Assembly: GCF_017583045.1 (NCBI RefSeq)
Contig: NZ_JAGFBF010000005.1
Span: forward strand, 496,001 to 560,000
Origin: Leucobacter tardus
GTDB taxonomy: Bacteria > Actinomycetota > Actinomycetes > Actinomycetales > Microbacteriaceae
Direction of reading: 5' to 3'
Length of the DNA: 64,000 nt
Below are positions 35,435 to 46,098 of this stretch, in pieces. Numbering within the stretch: the stretch's first letter is position 1; each line of letters begins with the position of its first letter. Below the pieces are notes generated by a model. That model did not search any database, was not told where the DNA came from, and worked only from the letters and a program-made list of their open reading frames with translations. The position numbers and the translations under genes were made by a program.

Positions 35435-35920
35435 ATGCCAGAGCTGGTACTGGTGCGTCACGGCAAGTCGGACTGGGGCGACCCCGGTCTGGCCGATCAC
35501 GAGCGCACACTGAACGACCGGGGGCGCGGCGATGCGCCCCGCATGGCCGCGCGCCTCGCCGGGTCGGGCGTCGGGATCGAGCGGCTCCTGTCGAGCACCG
35601 CCGTACGCGCCCGCACCACCGCCGAGATCTTCGGCGAAACGCTCGGCCTCGCGCCGGAACTCGATCCCGACCTGTATCTTGCGACGGCTGAGACGCTGAT
35701 GGCGACCGCGGCCGCCTGTGGGGCCGAGTCCGTGATGGTCGTGGCGCACGATCCCGGACTCTCCGAGCTCGCCTCCAGATGCTCAGGCGGCGCCATCGAC
35801 CACATGCCGGCCTGTGCCGTCGCGCGTTTCACCTGGCGCGCCGGTTCTTGGGCTGACGCCTCCGGGCGGGCCGCCGACGAGTGGTCCCTCGACACGCCCC
35901 GTTCAGCCTCGGGCCGGTGA
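35435..35920 (+). CDS. SixA-like histidine phosphatase
   Basis: A 161-residue histidine-phosphatase-superfamily protein: phospho-acceptor motif RHG (Arg8-His9-Gly10), LSSTAVRARTTAEIF with a second active-site Arg, and MVVAHDPGLSELA with the second catalytic His. The short length fits SixA, a phosphohistidine phosphatase, rather than phosphoglycerate mutase. GGAG precedes ATG 35435. Its last 18 bp overlap the end of the convergent P450 fusion gene. Confidence 0.87.
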   Translation: MPELVLVRHGKSDWGDPGLADHERTLNDRGRGDAPRMAARLAGSGVGIERLLSSTAVRARTTAEIFGETLGLAPELDPDLYLATAETLMATAAACGAESVMVVAHDPGLSELASRCSGGAIDHMPACAVARFTWRAGSWADASGRAADEWSLDTPRSASGR

Positions 35921-38869
35921 CGGCAGCGCCGCGCACACCCCCGTCGCCCAGTCGCGAGCAGCTTCGGTCGCGGGAATCGGGCCGCCCGCGTCGTGCCGCC
36001 CGTACTCCCCGATCTGACGGGCGCCGCACGCGCGCAGCGCCTCGGTGATGAGTTCACTGCCACGCGAATAGGTGCGATCGTAGCTCCGATCCCCCATGCC
36101 GAACACCGCGAACCGGAGTTCCGACAGGTCAGGTCGTTCCGCGAGCAGCTGCGCGACGAACGGTCGGGCGGATGTCGGCACCTCCCCGTCGCCGTAGGTT
36201 GCGCATACGAGGAGGTACAGGCGGTCAGGATCGAGGTCATCGATGCCCGTCTCGCCGAGGTCGCGCACCTCGACGTCGGTGTCGTCGCTGAAAAGCTGAC
36301 GCAGATCTTCCGCAACGAGTTCCGCTCCGCCCGACTCGGTGCCGAACAGCACAGTCGTGCCGATGCCGGGGTCGAGCGCCTCGCCGTCGGCGCTGGGCAG
36401 CGGCGGCAGCTCCAGGGTTGCGTCCGCGGCGGCCTCCAACTGCGCCGCGCGGCTCCGGAGCTTCGACCGCTCACGACCGGGGGCCGCCGTCAGGCGTTCG
36501 CGCAGGTCGATGCGCCGCCACCCCTCGAAGTCGATCTCGGTTTCGAGCGCCGGCAGTCCCGGAGCCGTCGTCGTGACCGCACCCGACCGCAGGTCGGCGA
36601 CGACCTTCTGCGCGAGTTCCCTGGCATCGGTGCGCTGATCGGGGATGGTCCCGCGCGGGCCGCGTCGCAACCAGCCCGCCGTGTACAGCCCCGCCGCGAT
36701 CCTCCCATCAGGGTGCGCCCCCGGCTGCAGTTCGCGCGCGGCGTCGACGTCACCCGCGAAGCCGATCGCGGTGATGACGTCGTCGGCCGGGAGCAGCTCC
36801 TCACCGTCAGCGCCGCGCACCTCGACCGCTGTGACGGCGTCGGTGCCCGCGCCTGTTCCCATGATCACCGCGGGTGTCGCACCGAACCACCAGTGGATCG
36901 TGACGCGGGACTCGGGGAGATCGGACTCGGCCAACGCCCGCACGGCGTCGATACGGGCATCTCGGCCGTCGTCCGGGAGAGCGCCCGCGCCGTGCACGCG
37001 GTGCGCCACCCCCGACAGCCCGGCGAGCTCACGCACCATCACCGGATCGAACTTCGCGTCCGCCGGGGCACTCCGACCGAGCAAGTGAATCGTCCGCACC
37101 CGTTCGGTGAAGCGGTGGTGCGCAGCGTCATCGATATCTGATCCGACGAAGCCGGCCGCGTCGCGAGCGATGATGCGCGCGAGGTCCATGGCGACGTTGC
37201 CGTGCCCGACGACGACGACGCGCTCGCCGAGTGGTTCCGGCTCAGGTGCGTCCGGGTACCCGTTCAGGAAGCGGGTCACCTCACCCGCGCCTCGCACACG
37301 ACCCCGTTCCGCACCGGGAATCTGGAGCTGCGCGTCGGCATGCAGTCCGGTCGCGAGTACGACGACGTCGTACGCGTCTTCCAGTTCGCGCAGGGTGACG
37401 TCCGTTCCGAGGCGAACATTGCCGCGGAATCGCACGCCCTCAGCACTGAACAGCCGATCGAACTGGCGGGCGACCGCCTTGGTGCCCTGGTGGTCGGCGG
37501 CGACGCCGTAGCGGACCAGCCCGTAGGGGGTCGGAAGCTCGTCGAACACTTCGATGGGCGCTTCGGGGAACGTGCGCTTGAGCGCTTGCGCTGAAAAGCA
37601 CCCGGACGGCCCCGACCCGACCACCGCGATGCGTGGGGCAGGCGACGTCTGCCCTGTCGGCTCTCCAATGGGTGTCGAGCGACGCCCCGTCCACGTGATC
37701 GGCAGCTTCGTCATGCCGCGGAACACCCAGCCGCCGATCTCGGGCGGATCCTCATCGATGAGCGCGAGACCCTCCAGTGACGAGAACAGGAGCGGCAGCG
37801 CGACCTCCGCGACCTCGGCGCGTGCCGCCCAGGCCCCCAGGCACACGTGCACGCCCTTGCCGAACGCGAGGTGCGGTTTCGCTTCTCGGCGCACATCGAA
37901 GCGATCCGGCTCGTCCCACACCTGCTCATCCCGGTTCGCCGACAGGATGCAGATGCCGAGTCGTGCACCGGCGGGCAACCGAACGCCGGCAAGTACGGTG
38001 TCGTGCTTCACCTGGCGCGAGTACAGCCCGATGGGGGCGACCCAGCGGATCGTCTCGTCGAACGCCGCGTTCCAGAGCGCCGGATCGGTTTCGACCGCCG
38101 CTCGCTGCTCCGGGTGCGAGAGCAAGCCCCACGCGGCAACGCCCAGGGCGTCCCTGGGTTCGTTGAGGCCGCCGCCGATCGTCATCTTGACGTTGGCCCG
38201 GATCCGCTCCAACGGCATCCGGTAGTCCGGAATCTGCAGCAGCTGCGACAGCAGCGACTCGTTGGGGTTGGCTGCGTGCCAGGCGAGCATCTCGTCGAGG
38301 GCGACATCGACCTCGTCGAACGATTGCTTGCCGAGTGCCCACACCTCGGGATCATCGGCGTAGTTGCCGGTCGCATCGATCATGGTCTGCGACCACCGCT
38401 GCAGGTCCTCCTGGGTCGCGTTGTGGAGGCCGATGAGCTCGCGCAGGCTCTCCGCCGCGAAGGGGGCGGCGAAGTCCCAGACGAGGTCGGCTCCGGGGCC
38501 CTTCACGATGAGCTCATCAAGATACCGCTCGGCGTTGCGCTGGAACTTCGCCTTCCAGACGCGCTGCACGGCCCCGGGGCGCAGCGCGGGCTGCCAGGCC
38601 TTGCGCTCGAGGTAGTGCTCCGGGTCATCGCGCCGAAGCATCGAGTGACCCATCGCCCGAATCTGCAGCGAGTCCTCCTCGTCGGCCGAGTAGACCACTT
38701 GGTCGAGCTCAGTCGCGTGCACCGCGGCGTACGAAGTCACCAGATACCGGTTGACGCTCGGCACCCAGTGCACTCCTCCCTCGGCGCGGAGACGCTCGTA
38801 GATCGGGAACGGATCCCGGTACAGATCGGGGATCGTGACCCAGTCGGCGATCGGTGCTTCGGTACTCAT
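35903..38869 (-). CDS. Self-contained cytochrome P450 - ferredoxin/adrenodoxin-reductase - flavodoxin triple fusion
   Basis: A 988-residue protein. Residues 1-395 are a P450: I-helix GGGLNEPRDA instead of the usual AGxDTT, ExxR (Glu272/Arg275) and heme loop FGKGVHVCLG (Cys343). Residues about 410-770 are an adrenodoxin-reductase/FprA-type module: FAD loop VVGSGPSG, PTPYGLVRYGVAADH, NADPH loop VVVGHGNVAMD. Residues about 838-985 are an FMN flavodoxin: LFGTESGGAE, CATYGDGEVPTS, VFGMGDRSYD. Predicted path: NADPH-FAD-FMN-heme in one chain. ATG 38869 follows GAGGA; GTG 38884 would add five residues. It is divergent from a LysR gene. The substrate is unknown. Confidence 0.92.
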   Translation of the reverse strand: MSTEAPIADWVTIPDLYRDPFPIYERLRAEGGVHWVPSVNRYLVTSYAAVHATELDQVVYSADEEDSLQIRAMGHSMLRRDDPEHYLERKAWQPALRPGAVQRVWKAKFQRNAERYLDELIVKGPGADLVWDFAAPFAAESLRELIGLHNATQEDLQRWSQTMIDATGNYADDPEVWALGKQSFDEVDVALDEMLAWHAANPNESLLSQLLQIPDYRMPLERIRANVKMTIGGGLNEPRDALGVAAWGLLSHPEQRAAVETDPALWNAAFDETIRWVAPIGLYSRQVKHDTVLAGVRLPAGARLGICILSANRDEQVWDEPDRFDVRREAKPHLAFGKGVHVCLGAWAARAEVAEVALPLLFSSLEGLALIDEDPPEIGGWVFRGMTKLPITWTGRRSTPIGEPTGQTSPAPRIAVVGSGPSGCFSAQALKRTFPEAPIEVFDELPTPYGLVRYGVAADHQGTKAVARQFDRLFSAEGVRFRGNVRLGTDVTLRELEDAYDVVVLATGLHADAQLQIPGAERGRVRGAGEVTRFLNGYPDAPEPEPLGERVVVVGHGNVAMDLARIIARDAAGFVGSDIDDAAHHRFTERVRTIHLLGRSAPADAKFDPVMVRELAGLSGVAHRVHGAGALPDDGRDARIDAVRALAESDLPESRVTIHWWFGATPAVIMGTGAGTDAVTAVEVRGADGEELLPADDVITAIGFAGDVDAARELQPGAHPDGRIAAGLYTAGWLRRGPRGTIPDQRTDARELAQKVVADLRSGAVTTTAPGLPALETEIDFEGWRRIDLRERLTAAPGRERSKLRSRAAQLEAAADATLELPPLPSADGEALDPGIGTTVLFGTESGGAELVAEDLRQLFSDDTDVEVRDLGETGIDDLDPDRLYLLVCATYGDGEVPTSARPFVAQLLAERPDLSELRFAVFGMGDRSYDRTYSRGSELITEALRACGARQIGEYGRHDAGGPIPATEAARDWATGVCAALPSPARG

Positions 38870-38871
38870 CG

Positions 38872-38961
38872 TAGTCGTCCTCACAACTTCATCGGTGTTG
38901 CTTCGAGTATGGAGCGGCGCGAACAGTTACGAAAGCGGAATTAGTCGTAGTACTTCATCGG
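38872..38961. promoter_or_regulatory. Direct repeats in the P450-LysR divergent promoter
   Basis: ACTTCATCGG occurs at 38886-38895 and 38952-38961, each preceded by TAGTCGT (38872-38878 and 38942-38948) with spacers of 7 and 3 bp. The copies flank the 112-bp divergent region and are candidate binding sites for the adjacent LysR regulator. Confidence 0.45.
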
Positions 38962-38981
38962 AAATACCGGATAATGGGACG

Positions 38982-39905
38982 ATGAGCATCGCCGCCCGGG
39001 TCGTTCCCGCATTCACCCTGAAGCAGCTGGCCTACCTCGTCGCCGCTGTCGAGGTCGGGACCATCACGGGGGCCGCCACCCGGCTCAACGTGTCCTCCTC
39101 GGCACTCTCCGACGCGATCACCGAACTCGAGTCGGCGATCCAGGAACAGCTGTGCATCCGCCGGCGCGCCCACGGACTCACGCTGACCCCGAGCGGCGAA
39201 CGCATCGTGGCGCACGCGAGGCGCGTGCTCGCCGAAGCCGATGAACTCACTCGTGCCGTCGGCGGCACCGACACGCTCTCGGGGCCGATCGTGATCGGCT
39301 GCTACCCGACCCTCGCGCCGATCGTGCTGCCGCGCCTCCTCCGCGAGTTCGGTGCCCAGCACCCGCAGGTCGATCTCACGATCCGAGAGGCGACGCAGGA
39401 CCAGCTCGCCGAGGACATCGCCGCCGGACGAGTCGACGTCGCATTCGTCTACGACATGCTCGTGCCGGCCGAGACCGAGCGGGTGCAGCTGGCTGCGTTT
39501 CCCGCGCACGTGGTACTGGCCGCCGACCACGCGCTCGCCGACCGCGACACGGTGCGGCTGACAGACCTTGTCGACGACGATCTCATCCTCCTCGACGCTC
39601 CCCCGTCGAGCGAGCACACCCTCTCGGTGTTCGACGCGCAGGGGCTCACTCCACGCGTGCGACACCGTACCTCGAGCTACGAAGTGGTCCGCACGCTCGT
39701 CGCCCGCGGGCTCGGCTACGGGATCCTCGTCTCGCGGGTGACGAACCCGCGCAGTTACGAAGGCCTTCCGCTCGTCGTGAAGCCCATCGATCCCCCGGTC
39801 GCACCGGTGGCGATCGATATGATCTGGGCTCCGAACCGCCCGGTCCCCGCACGCACCCGAGCACTCATCGGGTTCGCGCGAGGACTGGACTGGGGCGCGG
39901 CTTAG
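38982..39905 (+). CDS. LysR-family transcriptional regulator
   Basis: A 307-residue LysR regulator. The N-terminal winged helix (TLKQLAYLVAAVEVGTITGA, ATRLNVSSSALSDAITELE) is followed by a type-II periplasmic-fold effector domain (IVIGCYPTLAPIVLPRLL, VDVAFVYDM). ATG 38982 is chosen because the HTH begins 12 residues later; the open frame further upstream crosses the promoter region. LysR genes usually control the divergent neighbour, here the P450 fusion, through sites between them. The stop overlaps that of the aldehyde dehydrogenase on the other strand. Confidence 0.9.
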   Translation: MSIAARVVPAFTLKQLAYLVAAVEVGTITGAATRLNVSSSALSDAITELESAIQEQLCIRRRAHGLTLTPSGERIVAHARRVLAEADELTRAVGGTDTLSGPIVIGCYPTLAPIVLPRLLREFGAQHPQVDLTIREATQDQLAEDIAAGRVDVAFVYDMLVPAETERVQLAAFPAHVVLAADHALADRDTVRLTDLVDDDLILLDAPPSSEHTLSVFDAQGLTPRVRHRTSSYEVVRTLVARGLGYGILVSRVTNPRSYEGLPLVVKPIDPPVAPVAIDMIWAPNRPVPARTRALIGFARGLDWGAA

Positions 39906-41350
39906 ACCGTGATCACCTTCGGCGCCGCCACCGACTTCAGGCCGTGCGCGCCGAACTCGAGGCCGTACCCCGACGCCTTGACTCCCCCGAACGGCACCAT
40001 GGGGTTGAGCGTGCCGTGCTGGTTGATCCAGACGGTGCCGGCCTCCAAGCGGTCGGCGACACGACGGGCTTCGGCGGGATCGCCCCACACCGACGCGCCG
40101 AGCCCCTGGGCGGATGCGTTCGCGCGTGCCACCGCGTCGTCGAGATCGGTGTAGCGGATCACCGGGATGACGGGGCCGAACTGCTCCTGCTCGACGAGGT
40201 CGGCGCCGTCGCTGATGTCGGTCACGATGGTGGTGCGGTAGAAGCGCGGTCCGAGCTCGGGCGCCGCCTCGCCGCCGGTGACGACGGTCGCGCCGCGTTG
40301 CCGCGCATCGTCGACGAGCCGGCTGACGATGTCGAACTGCTGCGGGGTCGTCAGCGGGCCGAGCAGGTTCTCCTCATCAGCACCGGGCCCCATCGGGATC
40401 GACTCGGCCAGAGAAGCCAGCGCGGCCACCACCTCGTCGTGGACCGACTCGTGGACGTAGAGCCGCTTCAGGGCGGCGCAGGTCTGCCCGGTGTTGATGA
40501 AGATGCCCCAGAAGAGCGCTTCGCCGATCTCCGAAGCGTTCGCGCCGGGGAGTACGATGCCCGGGTCGTTGCCGCCGAGCTCCAGAGTCAGGCGCGCGAG
40601 GTTGTCGGCGGAGCTCCGCACGATCTCGCGCCCCGTCTCGGTGGAGCCGGTGAACATGACCTTGTCGATGCGGGGGTGCCCGGCGATCCGCGCACCGACC
40701 TCTCGGTTGCCCGACACGACGGTCAACACGCCGTCCGGGAGATGACGGTTCATGAGCTCGACGACCGCGAGCACACTCAGCGGCGTCGAGCTGCTCGGCT
40801 TCACGACCACCGCGTTCCCCATGCGCAGGGACGGTGCGATCTGCCAGATGCCGATGAGTGCCGGCCAGTTCCACGGACCGATTGCGGCGACCACGCCGAG
40901 CGGCACGTAGTGGAGCTCGGACCGGGTGCCCTCGGCCTCGAACAGCAGCTCGGGTTCGATGATGGTGTCTGCGGCGTTCCGCACCCACACGGCGCACCCG
41001 GCGGCTTCGAAGCGCGCCCCCGCGCCGTTCAGGGGTTTGCCCTGCTCGCTCGCGATGATGCGGGCGAGCTCCTCGGCGTGGGCGTCGATCTCGTCTGCGG
41101 CGAGGTGGAGGATGCGCGAGCGCTCCTCGTGGCCGAGCGCGGCCCAGCCGGTCTGCGCCGCACGAGCGGCGTCGACCGCCGCGTCGAGATCGACGATCGT
41201 GTGGACCGGGGCGTACCCGATCGTCTCACCGGTCGCGGCGTCCGGGATCGCCCGGCCCTGTTCGGGGTCGACGGTGATGGCGTCGAGCAGTGGGCTGCTC
41301 GATGGCGCCGCGGTGGGTGCTGCTGTGGTCGGTGATTCTGTGTTCGTCAT
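39902..41350 (-). CDS. NAD(P)-dependent aldehyde dehydrogenase
   Basis: A 482-residue ALDH-superfamily enzyme with PWNWPALIGIWQIAPSL, KPSSSTP (cofactor), FTGSTETG, general base Glu in LELGGNDPG and nucleophile Cys in NTGQTCAALKR. It oxidises an aldehyde to the acid. ATG 41350 has AGGAA upstream; an upstream in-frame start lacks one. A 20-residue Ala/Thr/Pro-rich N-terminus precedes the fold. It is the last gene of the TRAP operon, 51 bp after the binding-protein stop, and convergent with LysR. The substrate is probably made from the imported acid or amide. Confidence 0.9.
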   Translation of the reverse strand: MTNTESPTTAAPTAAPSSSPLLDAITVDPEQGRAIPDAATGETIGYAPVHTIVDLDAAVDAARAAQTGWAALGHEERSRILHLAADEIDAHAEELARIIASEQGKPLNGAGARFEAAGCAVWVRNAADTIIEPELLFEAEGTRSELHYVPLGVVAAIGPWNWPALIGIWQIAPSLRMGNAVVVKPSSSTPLSVLAVVELMNRHLPDGVLTVVSGNREVGARIAGHPRIDKVMFTGSTETGREIVRSSADNLARLTLELGGNDPGIVLPGANASEIGEALFWGIFINTGQTCAALKRLYVHESVHDEVVAALASLAESIPMGPGADEENLLGPLTTPQQFDIVSRLVDDARQRGATVVTGGEAAPELGPRFYRTTIVTDISDGADLVEQEQFGPVIPVIRYTDLDDAVARANASAQGLGASVWGDPAEARRVADRLEAGTVWINQHGTLNPMVPFGGVKASGYGLEFGAHGLKSVAAPKVITV

Positions 41351-41401
41351 GACAATGGTTCCTGATCCTCTGGTCTCGGGTACGGGGCGCGCCAACGCGG
41401 C

Positions 41402-42547
41402 TCAGCGGTCGGCGAACGAGGACACGCAGGCGACGGTGGCGTCGTCGTATGCGACATCGTCGTAGGTCTCAAGCCCGGCCTTGTACTCGTCGAGCACCCC
41501 TTGCGCGTCGTCGAGACCCTGCTCGGTGGCGAGATCGACCCACATCTGCTCACCGGTGTCGCCGAGAGAGTCGCGCCACTCGGCGGTCTGCTCCTCGTCC
41601 CACGCCTTGAGCGAGCGCACGGTCGGCGCCTCGAGCATCTGCTCGCACTGACCCGCCGCGACCTCGTTGAACGCGGCGATCCCCTCGCCTGTGTTGAGCT
41701 CCTCGGTCACGCGGTCGAGCGCCTCGCGCAGGTCGTCTGGCAGATCCTCGTAGGCTCCGGCGTTCACCCACATGCCGAACGTGGAGTACTGCCCCACGCC
41801 CGGGTCGGTCCACTCGGGCAGCAGCTCCATCAGTCCGTAGTTCACGGGGAAGTCGATGGCGCCGCCGATCGCGGAGACGACTCCGCGCTCGACCGACTCG
41901 TAAGTCTCTGGGGCGGTGACCGCCACGATGTTCGCCCCCTCGTCGCCGATCGCCTGCTGGATGATCGGGCCCGAGACACGCACCTGCGCGCCTTGGAACT
42001 GGTCGGTGCTCGTGATCGCATCGTGTCCGCCGAGGAGGAAGCGCCCCACTGGCCAGGTGGCGACGTGGTGCAGCCCGTTGCGCTCCATGATCTCCTGTGC
42101 CGGCGCATAGTTCTGGTGCAGATCGTAGATGGACTGCATTGCCGCCTGCGCGTTCTGGCTCAGGAACGGGATGCTCACCATACTCGTGGACGGGAAGTAC
42201 TGCGGCGTGTAGTCGGGCACCGTCACCCCGATCTGCGCGCGTCCGTCGCGCACGCAGTCGGCGACCTCGGGCGCCTTGCACAGCGACTCGGTGGCGGTCC
42301 GCTCGAAAGAGAGACGGCCGTCGGTCTCCTCCTCCACGCGGTCCATGAACCAGTCCTGCACGGCGGCGTTCGGGGTGTCTGCCTGCGCACCCGTGACGAG
42401 CGTCCAGGTGACGGTTTCGCCCTCACCTGATCCTGACGAATTGTTGATACCGGCGCAGCCGGTGAGTGCCAGGCCGGCGACGGCGACGACGGCGAGTCCG
42501 CTCGTGCGGAGGCCGCCGCGAGTCCGGCGATGAGATGTCGAGAACAT
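41402..42547 (-). CDS. dctP: TRAP transporter, DctP-type substrate-binding lipoprotein
   Basis: A 381-residue TRAP-family solute receptor. Signal peptide with lipobox ALTGC (Cys31), polar linker, then the DctP fold with QIGVTVPDYTPQYFPSTSM, the selectivity-Arg stretch FQGAQVRVSGPIIQQ and VVSAIGGAIDFPVNYGL. TRAP receptors bind organic acids and depend on a conserved Arg for the carboxylate; QVRVSGP supplies it here. ATG 42547 follows AAAGGA; the frame upstream lacks a signal. It is tethered as a lipoprotein, as expected in a Gram-positive cell. It delivers cargo to DctQM encoded upstream. Confidence 0.9.
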   Translation of the reverse strand: MFSTSHRRTRGGLRTSGLAVVAVAGLALTGCAGINNSSGSGEGETVTWTLVTGAQADTPNAAVQDWFMDRVEEETDGRLSFERTATESLCKAPEVADCVRDGRAQIGVTVPDYTPQYFPSTSMVSIPFLSQNAQAAMQSIYDLHQNYAPAQEIMERNGLHHVATWPVGRFLLGGHDAITSTDQFQGAQVRVSGPIIQQAIGDEGANIVAVTAPETYESVERGVVSAIGGAIDFPVNYGLMELLPEWTDPGVGQYSTFGMWVNAGAYEDLPDDLREALDRVTEELNTGEGIAAFNEVAAGQCEQMLEAPTVRSLKAWDEEQTAEWRDSLGDTGEQMWVDLATEQGLDDAQGVLDEYKAGLETYDDVAYDDATVACVSSFADR

Positions 42548-42691
42548 CGTTGTCCTTTCTGATGATTCACCTCGGCGTCGAGGCGTCTGATTCTGATTGT
42601 TCTGCAGCCTCACGGCCACGTGGTTGGTGAAGGGCGCACGTCGGTCAGCAGTTCGCGCACGCCCCGGGGCTATTCGGTGGCACGCCCCCGG

Positions 42692-44170
42692 CTATCCCGC
42701 TCCCTGCGCCACGAGTGACGGCAGGAAGAGTGTGATGGCGGGGAAGAAGAACAGGATCGCCGAGACCACGAGGTCCATGAGCATGAGCGGCAGGACCCCC
42801 TTGAACACGGTCTCGGTGCGCACCCCGGTCGCCCCGGCGACCACGAAGCAGGTCATACCGACGGGTGGTGTGACCATGCCGATCGCGGTCAGCTTCACGA
42901 TCATGAGGCCGAGCCAGATCCCGTTGAAGCCGAGCTCCATCGCGATCGGGTAGATGATCGGGATCGTGATGATGAGCACCGAGATCTCGTCGAGCGCCGT
43001 GCCGAGCGGGAGCAGGAAGAGCAGCAGCAGACCGATCGTCAGCAATGGAGGCACGTCGAGTCCCGCCACCCACGTCGTGACGGTATCCGGAACGTGCGCC
43101 GCGATGAGGAACGTCGAGAATACCGTCGACCCGACCAGGATCATGAACACCATCGACGTCGTCTGCGCGGTGTCGAGGAGAGCGCCCTTCACGTTGCTCC
43201 AGATGGTGCTGAGCCCGTCGCGTCGGAATTCCCAGATCAGGATCACCAGGGCGACGAACGCGGCGATAGCGGCCGATTCGGTCGAGGTGAAAATACCCGA
43301 GAACATCCCTCCCAGGATGATCAGGAAGATGAGCGAGAGGCGCATCAAGCCGCGCCATGGCAGCGTCCGCAGCGTGCGCCCGTAGACCTGCTGGACCGCT
43401 TCCGTGTTCGGGGTGCCTGCGGGCAGCGGCGCGGCGCTCCCCTCGCCGATGTCGATCGATCCGGTGGTGCGCGTGCCGACGCGGCTCGACCCGCCTGCGC
43501 GAGTAGCCGCGGAGGCGTGGGCCTCGGAGACGGTCTCGGCGAGTGTCGATTCGGGGCGTACGATCTGCCGATGCCCCATGACGAGGATGAAGACGATATA
43601 CCCCAGCGCGGAGAGGAACCCCGGAATGATTCCCGCGGCAAGGATCTGCGCCACCGATTCCCCCGTCATGATGGCGTAGAGCACGAGAAACGTACTCGGA
43701 GGGATCACGACGCCGAGCGTACCGGCGATTGCCACGATCCCCGTTGCGAGCGCGGCCGGGTACCCGTACGCCCGCATCTGCCCGACGGAGAGCTTCGACA
43801 TCGTGGCCGCGGTGCCGATACTCGAGCCGGAAACTGCGGAGAAGCCGGCGCAGGCCATGACCGTTGCGACTCCCAGACCGCCGGGGAACCGGCTGACCAT
43901 GTGGTTCGCGACGGCGAAGACGTGCTCGGCGATCTTCGCACGCATGGCGAACATCCCCATGAGGATGAACATCGGAATGATGGTGAGCGAGAAGCTGGCG
44001 GTCGCACTGAACGGCACCGAGCCCATCACGTTCGAGGCGTAGTCGGTGCCCTGGAGGATTCCGAGTCCGAGTGCGCCCGAGAGCGCGAGCGACAGCGCCA
44101 CCGGCATCCGCATCATCAGGAGAACGAGGAGCAGAACAACGATAGTGAGGACGATTATCGTGAGGAGCAT
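42692..44170 (-). CDS. dctM: TRAP transporter large permease subunit
   Basis: A 492-residue DctM with about 12 membrane segments (MRMPVALSLALSGALGLGI, GGLGVATVMACAGFSAVSGS). It is longer than most DctM proteins (about 425-440) because of a hydrophilic Ala/Ser/Thr/Gly-rich stretch at about residues 200-273 in the middle of the protein; no family domain is visible in the insert. It uses the sodium or proton gradient to import the bound substrate. ATG 44170. About 40 bp separate it from dctQ. Confidence 0.9.
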   Translation of the reverse strand: MLLTIIVLTIVVLLLVLLMMRMPVALSLALSGALGLGILQGTDYASNVMGSVPFSATASFSLTIIPMFILMGMFAMRAKIAEHVFAVANHMVSRFPGGLGVATVMACAGFSAVSGSSIGTAATMSKLSVGQMRAYGYPAALATGIVAIAGTLGVVIPPSTFLVLYAIMTGESVAQILAAGIIPGFLSALGYIVFILVMGHRQIVRPESTLAETVSEAHASAATRAGGSSRVGTRTTGSIDIGEGSAAPLPAGTPNTEAVQQVYGRTLRTLPWRGLMRLSLIFLIILGGMFSGIFTSTESAAIAAFVALVILIWEFRRDGLSTIWSNVKGALLDTAQTTSMVFMILVGSTVFSTFLIAAHVPDTVTTWVAGLDVPPLLTIGLLLLFLLPLGTALDEISVLIITIPIIYPIAMELGFNGIWLGLMIVKLTAIGMVTPPVGMTCFVVAGATGVRTETVFKGVLPLMLMDLVVSAILFFFPAITLFLPSLVAQGAG

Positions 44171-44209
44171 GGGAACCCTCCGGGTGACGGGGCGAGCAGA
44201 GACCGGGTG

Positions 44210-44785
44210 TCAGGCATCGAGCACCGCCTCGGTCGCTTCGCCGTACGGGGTGCGGCCCCGCAGCGCGCGGACGAGGTTGACGATCGCGACGACCGTCCAG
44301 AGCACGACCCCGACGGCGATGATCCAGCGCATCGGCCAGATCGGCCACTGCACCAGACCGAACCGGGTCTCGCTCGCGCTGGTCGACTGGGCGGCGCGCA
44401 CGAAGAGGGCGACGGACATCCACGCGAGGATCCCCGCGCTCAGCGCCCAGACGAGCGTCGAGACGGCGCGGGCGGATCGCGGCGAGAGCCGATCGGTGAC
44501 GATGCTTACGGCGACGTGACCGCCCTGGATCGACGTCCAGGCGAGCCCGAGGAAGACGGAGGTGACGAGCGCCGTCTCCGCGATTTCGATCATGCCCGGC
44601 AGGCTCGACCGAGTGATCCAGCGAACGAGCACATCGGCGACGGTCGCGAGCATGAGCACCACGAGGCTGCCCGCGGCGATGACGCCGAGCGCAGCACTGC
44701 ACTTCTGGAGCACACGGTCGAATGTCGAACGGGCTGTCGTGTTCGGGGATGCCGCGGTCGACACCTCAGCGACGGGCTGGGTCAT
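44210..44785 (-). CDS. dctQ: TRAP transporter small permease subunit
   Basis: A 191-residue DctQ protein with four predicted membrane helices (GVIAAGSLVVLMLATVADVL; GMIEIAETALVTSVFLGLAW; STLVWALSAGILAW; the last around WIIAVGVVLWTVVAIV). An N-terminal polar segment of about 30 residues precedes helix 1. ATG 44785 overlaps the end of the dehydrogenase gene by 20 bp; the upstream extension of the frame has no DctQ similarity. It associates with DctM. Confidence 0.87.
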   Translation of the reverse strand: MTQPVAEVSTAASPNTTARSTFDRVLQKCSAALGVIAAGSLVVLMLATVADVLVRWITRSSLPGMIEIAETALVTSVFLGLAWTSIQGGHVAVSIVTDRLSPRSARAVSTLVWALSAGILAWMSVALFVRAAQSTSASETRFGLVQWPIWPMRWIIAVGVVLWTVVAIVNLVRALRGRTPYGEATEAVLDA

Positions 44786-45692
44786 GGCGCACACCCTCTT
44801 CCGACCGCTCCCGCCAGAACTCGACGGCCCGAGTGTGATCAACGTTCCCGAGCGCCTCGAGCGCCTCGCCCATCGCGCCGGTCACGGCATCGCATACCGG
44901 AGAGGGGCGGCCGGCGGCGCGCTGCACACTCTGCGCCACCCGGACGTCCTTCGTGAAGAGCGGGAGCGCGAATCCGCTCGCGTATTGTCCGCCGACAATG
45001 TGGTCAGGCAGCACGTGGGTGGTGACGAAGCTCTGACCCGTCGACGCGTTGAAGACATCGACCATGACGCCGGCGTCGAGGCCGAAGTCGGCGCCCGCGA
45101 TGAGGGCCTCGGCAGCCGCCGTGAACGCGGCAGCGGCGACGAAGTTGTTGAGTGCCTTCATCGCGTGGCCGGTGCCGAGCCTGCCGGTACGGAAGATCTG
45201 CGCACTCATGGTCTCAATGACCGGGATCGCTCTCTCCGCGGCGGTGTCGTCGTCGGTACCGAGCATGATCGCGAGTGTGCCGGCGATGGCGCGCTCACGA
45301 GCGCCGGAGACAGGAGCATCGACCATGGCGTAGCCCGCATCGCGGAGCCGTGCACCCGTCTCGGTGGTCTCGGAGGGGTCGGATGAACTCATGTCGACGA
45401 ATACGGTGCCGGGTGCGGCCGGTATGCGCGGTGCGCCCGCGTCATCGAGGAGGGCGCTGCGGACGATGGCGCTCGTCGGCAGCATGGTGACGATGATGTC
45501 GCGGTCCGCCAGATCGGCGATGTCCGGGACGGGCCGTGCGCCGATCCGCTCGGCGGCCGCAGTCGTCTGCTCGGTGTTCGCATCGAAGACGGTGAGGTCG
45601 TACGCGTCGGAGGCGGCGATGTGCTTCGCCATCGGCTCCCCCATGGTGCCGAGCCCGATGAATCCGACTCGGATACGGGCGGTGTCACGCAC
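44766..45692 (-). CDS. NAD-dependent beta-hydroxyacid (3-hydroxyisobutyrate-type) dehydrogenase
   Basis: A 308-residue protein: Rossmann motif GFIGLGTMGEPMAKHIA (about 10-26), substrate loop DAPVSGARERAIAGTLAIM and catalytic Lys in GTGHAMKALNNF, all typical of the 3-hydroxyisobutyrate, tartronate-semialdehyde and related dehydrogenases. It interconverts a beta-hydroxyacid and a semialdehyde, which suits the aldehyde dehydrogenase in the same operon. GTG 45692 has GGGGAGG 6 bp upstream and overlaps the CMD gene by 8 bp; a TTG six codons earlier is less likely. Confidence 0.87.
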   Translation of the reverse strand: MRDTARIRVGFIGLGTMGEPMAKHIAASDAYDLTVFDANTEQTTAAAERIGARPVPDIADLADRDIIVTMLPTSAIVRSALLDDAGAPRIPAAPGTVFVDMSSSDPSETTETGARLRDAGYAMVDAPVSGARERAIAGTLAIMLGTDDDTAAERAIPVIETMSAQIFRTGRLGTGHAMKALNNFVAAAAFTAAAEALIAGADFGLDAGVMVDVFNASTGQSFVTTHVLPDHIVGGQYASGFALPLFTKDVRVAQSVQRAAGRPSPVCDAVTGAMGEALEALGNVDHTRAVEFWRERSEEGVRHDPARR

Positions 45693-46098
45693 GATCGGCC
45701 TCCCCGTCAAGGTCGAGCGAGACGCCGCGCTCCGCGAAGACCTCCTCGAGCGCCCGCAGTCCCTCGACGGCGGCGGGAATCCCGCAGTACAGGATCGAGT
45801 GCACCGCGATTTCGCGCAGTTCGACCGGCGTCACCCCGTTGGCGAGTGCGCCACGCGCGTGGATGCGGAGCTCATGCGTGCTGCCGAGGGCGATGAGCAT
45901 CGCGAAGGTGATGCGGCTGCGCTCCTGGAGTACGAGTCCATCGCGCTGCCAGATGTCACCGAAGCAGGTTCGAGTGACGAACTCCTGCAGCTTGTGATTG
46001 AGGTCAGTGGTGTGCTCGACCTGGTTCTCGGCGCCATCCGGCCCGAACATGTCGCGTCGCTGCCGCAGACCGGTCTCGTACAGGTCGTCAGTGATCAA
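45685..46098 (-). CDS. Carboxymuconolactone decarboxylase-like protein
   Basis: A 137-residue CMD (PcaC-like) protein with DMFGPDGAENQVEHTTDLNH, ERSRITFAMLIALGSTHELR, HARGALANGVTPVELREIAV and HSILYCGIPAAVEGL. It lacks the CxxC of AhpD, so a decarboxylase or isomerase-type role is more likely than a peroxidase. The TTG start at 46098 is chosen because AGGAGG stands just upstream; an upstream ATG would add 41 residues from the promoter region. It is the first gene of the TRAP operon, divergent from AraC, and marks the operon as catabolic for a carboxylic acid. Confidence 0.8.
   Translation of the reverse strand: MITDDLYETGLRQRRDMFGPDGAENQVEHTTDLNHKLQEFVTRTCFGDIWQRDGLVLQERSRITFAMLIALGSTHELRIHARGALANGVTPVELREIAVHSILYCGIPAAVEGLRALEEVFAERGVSLDLDGEADRA

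Follow-up and report, generated by a model that had tools for sequence, protein, structure and literature searches.

A single gene in Leucobacter tardus encodes a P450 heme domain, a FAD reductase module of the adrenodoxin reductase kind and a flavodoxin, in this order, in one polypeptide of 988 residues. It lies in the window analysed here, the whole stretch of 64,000 nucleotides taken from contig NZ_JAGFBF010000005.1. A single reading frame spans the three cofactor modules, and their motifs are intact, which is the architecture of a self-sufficient P450, and the three-module chain is a retained fusion. We lean slightly towards regarding it as an undescribed natural class of self-sufficient P450, made once by a ferredoxin-to-flavodoxin swap followed by fusion, retained in several families of actinobacteria and perhaps using NADH. 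With rather more confidence, we read it as a self-sufficient aryl O-demethylase P450 of the CYP1232A type that arose from a partner swap and then fusion.

Modules of the fused chain

The features of the gene and of its surroundings are the following, in window coordinates:

35903..38869, minus strand: P450 - FAD reductase - flavodoxin fusion, ORF of 988 codons (ATG at 38869, stop at 35903-35905; 60 distinct one-frame homologues)
37685..38869, minus strand: P450 heme domain, residues 1-395, CYP1232A-like (6g71, CYP1232A24, 560.7 bits)
38156..38161, minus strand: Glu237-Pro238 in the I-helix motif GGGLNEPRD (both invariant in 21/21 aligned sequences)
37841..37843, minus strand: Cys343 in HLAFGKGVHVCLG, the proximal heme-thiolate ligand, a role established for P450s (invariant in 21/21 aligned sequences)
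37643..37684, minus strand: linker 1, residues 396-409 (both its length and its sequence vary; length spread estimated)
36425..37642, minus strand: FAD/NAD(P)H reductase module of adrenodoxin reductase/FprA type, residues 410-815 (GSGPSG and GHGNVA motifs)
37070..37075, minus strand: Arg599-Ser600, opposite Arg197-Arg198 of adrenodoxin reductase (sequence alignment)
36365..36424, minus strand: linker 2, residues 816-835 (boundaries estimated)
35906..36364, minus strand: flavodoxin (FMN) module of cindoxin/MioC type, residues 836-988 (cindoxin 4oxx, 6.9e-24; PF00258)
38870..38981, no strand: divergent intergenic region of 112 bases (ribosome-site-like GAGGAC before the P450 ATG)
38982..39905, plus strand: divergent LysR-type regulator (Pfam; start placed by us inside the ORF)
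39902..41395, minus strand: aldehyde dehydrogenase, possibly of the same pathway (Pfam Aldedh)
41402..45710, minus strand: TRAP transporter DctP/DctM/DctQ and a 3-hydroxyisobutyrate-dehydrogenase-like gene, possibly of the same pathway (Pfam)

The Pfam models match the chain in the order P450, Pyr_redox_2 and Flavodoxin_1, each above its own curated cut-off, and these are the only matches in a scan at 0.001. This order and the nearest relatives of the modules bear out the first-pass annotation, which had described heme, adrenodoxin reductase/XplB-like FAD and flavodoxin modules in one chain, with the heme first and the flavodoxin last; its coordinates (35903-38869, 988 residues) are exact, and the gene is now assigned to the minus strand. 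The AlphaFold model of the full chain has a pTM of 0.55, with uncertain module arrangement and no reliable interdomain contact, and its pLDDT falls below 50 at residues 398-408 in the region of linker 1.

The nearest solved relative of the heme domain is CYP1232A24 (PDB 6g71), with 61% identity in a comparison with the predicted model, and the next-nearest solved structures include the O-demethylases SyoA and GcoA. Membership of a CYP subfamily corresponds to more than 55% identity to a named member, a value that the heme part exceeds for CYP1232A; the name 'CYP1232' was not found in the literature searched. The I-helix motif retains the acid (Glu237) and has Pro at the position of the usual Thr. 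The whole GGGLNEPRD motif is common to the fusion and CYP1232A24, and the Glu-Pro pair is also present in GcoA and SyoA. CYP1232A24, from the papaverine pathway of an Arthrobacter, is said to have been reported by Klenk in 2019 to O-demethylate methoxylated phenylacetates, and its solved chain consists of a heme domain of 405 residues, whereas the fusion has 988 residues and three modules. The papaverine-pathway cluster is proposed, according to PMC9687028, to have two P450s, a flavodoxin and a flavodoxin reductase; if these partners are separate genes, as the wording of that review suggests, CYP1232A24 would be the unfused form. A locus near-identical to that of CYP1232A24 itself was not found in 395 genomes of one family, where the top identity is 63%. 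The locus is probably contained in CVLG01000001-3, the ENA record of the papaverine strain of PMC4440947, which is presumably the strain concerned.

By sequence, the FAD module is closest, among solved proteins, to adrenodoxin reductase (1cjc, 2.3e-44) and FprA (1lqt, 4.8e-40). The module had been taken at first as NADPH-binding; this preference is not established, because Arg197-Arg198 of adrenodoxin reductase aligns with Arg599-Ser600, and Arg-Ser is found at this position in 47 of 47 fused rows. Since the Arg-Arg pair of the FprA and adrenodoxin reductase relatives is Arg-Ser, the fusion may use NADH. Another match to the FAD module, with 38% identity over residues 397-621, is found elsewhere in the genome of the window. 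For the FMN module, cindoxin 4oxx is the best solved relative by sequence.

Conservation and origin of the fusion

The domain order whose recurrence the first pass had proposed to look for is found in full-length homologues, as 79 loci encode 60 distinct proteins with all three modules in one frame, which rules out that the fusion came about by a frame accident, by chance or by faulty assembly. Duplicate or fragment loci were removed ahead of counting, 17 in one round and 18 before the LysR count given below. In one of the 60 (L104) a stop cuts the flavodoxin part. Comparisons with five relatives, taken from 16 full-length ones, show purifying selection on each of the three modules, with dN/dS of 0.05-0.11 for heme, 0.12-0.22 for FAD and 0.10-0.30 for FMN; linker 1 has values of 0.48-0.73, computable in three of the five comparisons.

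The fused proteins group together in the tree of heme domains. CYP1232A24, added in a tree that left out 21 fused rows and far P450s, joins the fused group at 99/99, and the branch that excludes it is weak (89/49). A single origin of the fusion is supported, not proven. In the trees of the flavin modules, which keep 24 of the 47 fused rows, the FAD module is nearer to Microbacteriaceae FAD genes located beside other P450s than to XplB (support 85, weak); for the FMN module, Microbacteriaceae flavodoxin genes located beside other P450s are likewise nearer than XplA (support 97).

At the gene level, the ferredoxin reductase of the sister lineage is absent beside the fusion: a separate ferredoxin reductase is near all 17 distinct unfused relatives, three of which (L039, L118 and L119) supplied the query sequences, and near none of the 35 fused loci, out of 60, that have 4.5 kb on both sides. 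At one fused locus outside this count, which fails the flank rule (L069), the ferredoxin reductase of a paralogue adjoins the fusion. The three proteins also occur as separate neighbouring genes, in the order P450-FAD-flavodoxin on a Rhodococcus plasmid and FAD-flavodoxin-P450 on a Klebsiella plasmid. These arrangements are consistent with a route in which a P450 lineage that normally works with a separate ferredoxin and ferredoxin reductase would have acquired a flavodoxin together with the reductase that serves it; the P450, flavodoxin and reductase genes would have fused as the last step.

Proposed function and competing readings

We infer the electron path, the coenzyme and the substrate of the fusion as follows. 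NAD(P)H would reduce the adrenodoxin-reductase-like FAD module by hydride transfer, and FAD would hand on its electrons one at a time to the flavodoxin at the C-terminus. The FMN module would then swing back to the heme domain at the N-terminus, approach its proximal face and reduce the heme two times in each turnover. The heme domain would hydroxylate the methoxy carbon of methoxylated phenylacetates, such as homovanillate, 3,4-dimethoxyphenylacetate and near kin, releasing formaldehyde and homoprotocatechuate for meta-cleavage. On this reading the enzyme is probably an aryl O-demethylase that supplies the breakdown of homoprotocatechuate. Genes similar to HpaD, HpaE and HpaG are located within 8 kb of the fusion in three of the 60 distinct fusions (L025, L033 and L166), and L025 also has HpaI- and HpaH-like genes under the cut-off. 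With a flank rule of 6.5 kb on both sides, which keeps 33 of 60 fused loci, homoprotocatechuate genes are near the fusion in 2 of 33, with a chance P of ~0.03 that uses a rough 0.8% rate chosen by us. In the genome of the window, HpaD and HpaE are above cut-off elsewhere, HpaD at ~158 kb from the fusion. This presence says little, because HpaD is above cut-off in 48 of 54 congeneric genomes, and co-occurrence within the genus was dropped as support for the substrate.

It is possible, on a more tentative footing, that the protein is a self-sufficient P450 acting on another substrate, for example one imported by the TRAP transporter and finished by the aldehyde dehydrogenase. The neighbours in the window (LysR, aldehyde dehydrogenase, TRAP transporter and 3-hydroxyisobutyrate-dehydrogenase-like gene) point in this direction, and the set recurs beside the fusion in L034, L074 and L078; L079 shares the aldehyde dehydrogenase and the transporter, the latter cut at the end, while its 3-hydroxyisobutyrate-dehydrogenase-like gene would be beyond the available stretch. 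Neighbourhoods of the fusion differ among lineages, and 26 of the 55 loci that were mapped, both fused and unfused ones, carry a cluster of transporters (c2); in four of its members the MFS metabolite/H+ symporter type is matched under its cut-off or with no cut-off applied. The purine-rich GAGGAC precedes the fusion ATG. A divergent LysR is present at 39 of 46 fused loci examined and a LysR anywhere nearby at 42 of 46. Against another substrate stand the 61% identity of the heme domain to CYP1232A24 and the homoprotocatechuate genes close to three fusions, and we keep the aryl O-demethylase as the preferred reading.

A chain that lacks self-sufficiency in vivo, with slow flavin modules, or modules serving other proteins, and electrons supplied by housekeeping ferredoxins, is improbable. 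The model without reliable interdomain contact and the other FAD-module match in the genome would agree with this; however, the flavin motifs are retained, the FAD and FMN modules are under purifying selection and the sister-type ferredoxin reductase is near 0 of 35 fused loci examined.

The chain had also been proposed to combine the XplA and XplB functions. The two comparison genes, on two plasmids, are recorded as FAD-dependent oxidoreductase and cytochrome P450, and we presume them to be the XplB and XplA of these RDX-degrading strains. The FAD module shares 43% identity with the presumed XplB, and the FMN module 40% with the flavodoxin of the presumed XplA, but the heme domain is 61% identical to CYP1232A24 against 26% to the presumed XplA, and the trees place both flavin modules nearer to the Microbacteriaceae genes, so the proposal is not supported. 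A reductive enzyme in which the fused flavins drive denitration or dehalogenation and not oxygenation is very improbable. In its favour, XplA is described in PMC8081977 as having lost the Asp/Glu-Thr motif, and the fusion has Pro at the Thr position; against it, Glu237 is kept in a GGGLNEPRD motif shared with CYP1232A24, with Glu-Pro also in GcoA and SyoA; an XplA-like function was rejected on heme identity and this motif.

Relation to known P450 systems and significance

The review PMC11173547 lists ten P450 classes, and the order of the fusion, heme first and flavodoxin last, is unlike all ten as given there. No description of a heme - adrenodoxin-reductase-type FAD - flavodoxin architecture was found in the literature searched, which omits most subscription journals. 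XplA (class VI) has its flavodoxin N-terminal to the P450 and a separate reductase, whereas the fusion has a C-terminal flavodoxin and the reductase in the chain. P450cin, cindoxin and cindoxin reductase (class III) pass electrons from FAD to FMN to heme according to PMC9687028. This is the delivery order proposed for the fusion, with the same pairing of a FAD reductase and a flavodoxin, but the class III components are three separate proteins with a different P450.

P450BM3 (class VIII) and P450RhF/CYP116B (class VII) are natural one-chain P450s with a C-terminal reductase, as in the fusion. P450BM3, of order heme-FMN-FAD, has a CPR-type diflavin reductase, whereas the FAD module of the fusion is Pyr_redox_2, nearest to adrenodoxin reductase and FprA, and precedes the flavodoxin. 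Class VII has a phthalate-oxygenase-type reductase, with FMN and [2Fe-2S] according to PMC11173547, and no [2Fe-2S] domain was matched in the fusion chain. The guaiacol O-demethylase GcoAB also performs aromatic O-demethylation, but it is a two-protein system with the ferredoxin-FAD reductase GcoB, as described in PMC6021390, in contrast to the single chain of the fusion.

Single-chain P450s, of which there are few types, are valued as catalysts since they work without partner proteins. The fusion would extend these types by a further layout: its reductase is of the adrenodoxin reductase kind, and its electron carrier, placed last in the chain, would have to shuttle between two of the modules to which it is joined. 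The genes collected here give a hint of how the fusion arose as well, and this route is testable because the unfused ferredoxin lineage, flavodoxin pairs encoded separately and the 60 distinct fusions are known. If the proposed substrate is true, the enzyme may offer a compact tool for demethylating lignin-derived acids.

Modules and predicted structure of the fused P450

The three-module gene and its convergent neighbour occupy the following positions of the window:

35903-38869, minus strand: P450-FAD reductase-flavodoxin fusion, a single open frame of 988 residues (ATG at 38869, stop at 35903-35905)
35435-35920, plus strand: SixA-like histidine phosphatase gene, convergent to the fusion

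The 3' ends of the two genes overlap by 18 bases (35903-35920). The coordinates given by the first-pass annotation are borne out, and so is the order it had read in the chain, heme, FAD and flavodoxin, as the Pfam models P450, Pyr_redox_2 and Flavodoxin_1 follow one another in this order along the sequence, each exceeding its own cut-off. The closest solved sequence relative of residues 4-393 is 6g71, the heme domain titled CYP1232A24 from Arthrobacter sp.; those of the middle module are adrenodoxin reductase and FprA, and that of the C-terminal module is cindoxin. The predicted model agrees with the sequence matches of the first two modules: Foldseek places 6g71 first (61% identity), followed by FprA and adrenodoxin reductase (27-28%), and no flavodoxin structure is among the best 50 matches listed for the full chain. 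The full-chain model has a mean pLDDT of 78.4 and a pTM of only 0.55, so it does not fix the arrangement of the modules.

Distribution and conservation

A search for homologues with the same domain order, proposed in the first-pass annotation, finds the three modules in a single frame at 79 loci, representing 60 distinct proteins, one of which (L104) has its flavodoxin part cut by a stop. Named carriers are Leucobacter, Brevibacterium, Agrococcus, Microbacterium, Subtercola, Gulosibacter, [Zimmermannella] faecalis and a Micrococcaceae MAG. Sixteen of 54 genomes of the same genus have the entire chain in a single alignment and a single open frame, and four (G015, G032, G045, G048) align piecewise in frames of 1054-1428 codons, G015 and G048 being read as complete. 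The fusion is split by a frame change in genome G022 and cut by a contig end in G036. The family sample gives matches at 1e-120 in 21 of 398 genomes, 19 read as the fusion and two as heme only; among the 19 are G378, whose frame is broken, and G421, which contains a stop. Matches in the order sample (14/396 genomes) cover the entire chain in ten cases, four of them read as complete, and the heme part only in four, while the two matches at 1e-100 in the phylum sample (396 genomes) are the window itself and a heme-part match. The CYP1232A24 sequence has matches at 1e-140 in 56 of 395 genomes from a related family. The frame spans the fusion in 16 of these (15 read as complete, one truncated where its contig ends); the remaining 40 are taken as unfused from frame lengths, with G1203 (frame 813) unsure and G1259 alone read, which is heme only and has a ferredoxin and a reductase.

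The fusion is evolutionarily kept. Against five relatives, dN/dS is 0.05-0.11 for the heme module, 0.12-0.22 for FAD and 0.10-0.30 for FMN; for the short linker 1 it is 0.48-0.73 in the three comparisons where it is computable. In two fused-lineage genes (L075:8059-11476 and L036:9941-13055) the reading frame changes within or close to the heme-FAD linker, which may be either real fission or sequencing error, and the copy at L106 is broken inside the FAD module.

Redox partners and origin of the fusion

The 47 fused proteins of an 82-row heme tree, which count in two frame-split copies and the broken copy L106, lie on a single branch with SH-aLRT 99. When CYP1232A24 and more fusions are included (65 rows), the branch that separates the 44 fused rows from the rest has a support of only 89/49, whereas the grouping of CYP1232A24 with the fused heme rows is supported at 99/99. 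The modules of 24 fused rows form single groups both for FAD (98) and for FMN (91, not strong). The fused FAD group belongs to an open fork of weak support (85) that also holds Microbacteriaceae FAD genes adjoining a flavodoxin gene and Rhodobacterales pairs, and the fused FMN group is closest to Microbacteriaceae flavodoxins (97).

A class I type ferredoxin reductase is found within 4.5 kb at all 17 distinct loci of unfused relatives with sufficient flank, three of which supplied the query sequences, and at none of 35 fused loci with such flank; in an earlier, smaller set with ferredoxin and ferredoxin reductase both counted, the values are 13/13 and 0/25. In a genome of the window's genus (L069:9416-16698), where the fused gene fails the flank rule, a heme-only paralogue and its ferredoxin reductase stand side by side with a full fusion, so both electron systems coexist there. 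A Rhodococcus plasmid has separate adjoining genes in the order of the fusion. In the simplest reading, this P450 lineage would have changed its type of redox partner, and the fusion of the genes would have come afterwards.

Judging from the kind of parts, electrons should pass from NAD(P)H to FAD, FMN and then heme. Arg197-Arg198 of adrenodoxin reductase has a role in NADPH binding and aligns with Arg599-Ser600 of the window protein, so the NADPH specificity earlier attributed to the FAD module is not upheld, and either NADPH or NADH may be the coenzyme. Arg-Ser occupies this pair in 47/47 fused and 19/25 unfused rows, Arg-Arg being found in the five FprA-like Gordonia rows and Arg-Gly in one row.

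Other gene sets carry similar parts. At L063:8400-13145, and also at L064, L065, L071 and L072, a P450 about 25-28% identical to that of the window adjoins an unfused FAD reductase and flavodoxin; the L063 set includes a glutamine synthetase match (Gln-synt_C), and the corresponding genes at the other four loci fall in the same sequence cluster as that gene. Such a set may be a P450 system of three genes that includes a step of amide formation. In Rhodobacterales (L115:6553-9724, L053:8500-11625), FAD reductase and flavodoxin pairs lie downstream of an aldehyde dehydrogenase; the incomplete gene table has no annotated P450 around the L115 pair, which may therefore serve another enzyme.

Probable substrate and place among P450 systems

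CYP1232A24 reportedly catalyzes O-demethylation of methoxylated phenylacetates, and this activity, together with the gene context of some fusions, suggests the substrate. The homoprotocatechuate breakdown genes HpaD and HpaE, both over cut-off, and an HpaG-like gene lie within 8 kb of the fusion at L025 and L033. L025 also has HpaI- and HpaH-like matches that stay below cut-off, and near the fusion at L166 are close homologues of the HpaG-like, HpaE and HpaD genes (66%, 85% and 79% identical to those of the window genome). Such genes are near 3 of 60 distinct fusions, or 2 of 33 with full flanks (P of about 0.03, with the chance rate set roughly by us). In the window's own genome HpaD is about 158 kb away, and the genes near the fusion encode instead a LysR-type regulator, an aldehyde dehydrogenase and a TRAP transporter. 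Fused genes often have a divergent LysR gene as a neighbour (39/46 loci). We hold with moderate confidence, slightly reduced because the homoprotocatechuate genes are within 8 kb yet not directly adjacent, that the protein is a self-sufficient P450 which arose by partner exchange and then fusion, and a probable aryl O-demethylase for methoxylated phenylacetates.

The FAD module is 43% identical to a sequence that we take to be XplB and the FMN module 40% identical to the flavodoxin of the presumed XplA, names that the records themselves do not carry. The presumed XplA heme part is only 26% identical, and the earlier analogy with XplA function does not hold.

Among the ten P450 classes in the portion of a 2024 review considered here, none combines heme, this kind of FAD reductase and flavodoxin in a single chain: class III has the same partners, each a protein of its own, in class VI the flavodoxin is part of the P450 chain and the reductase is not, and classes VII and VIII have reductases of other kinds (PMC11173547). 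No prior description of the architecture was found in the open-licence PMC literature, and it may be described elsewhere. The fusion is a new variant among the known kinds of P450, conserved and testable.
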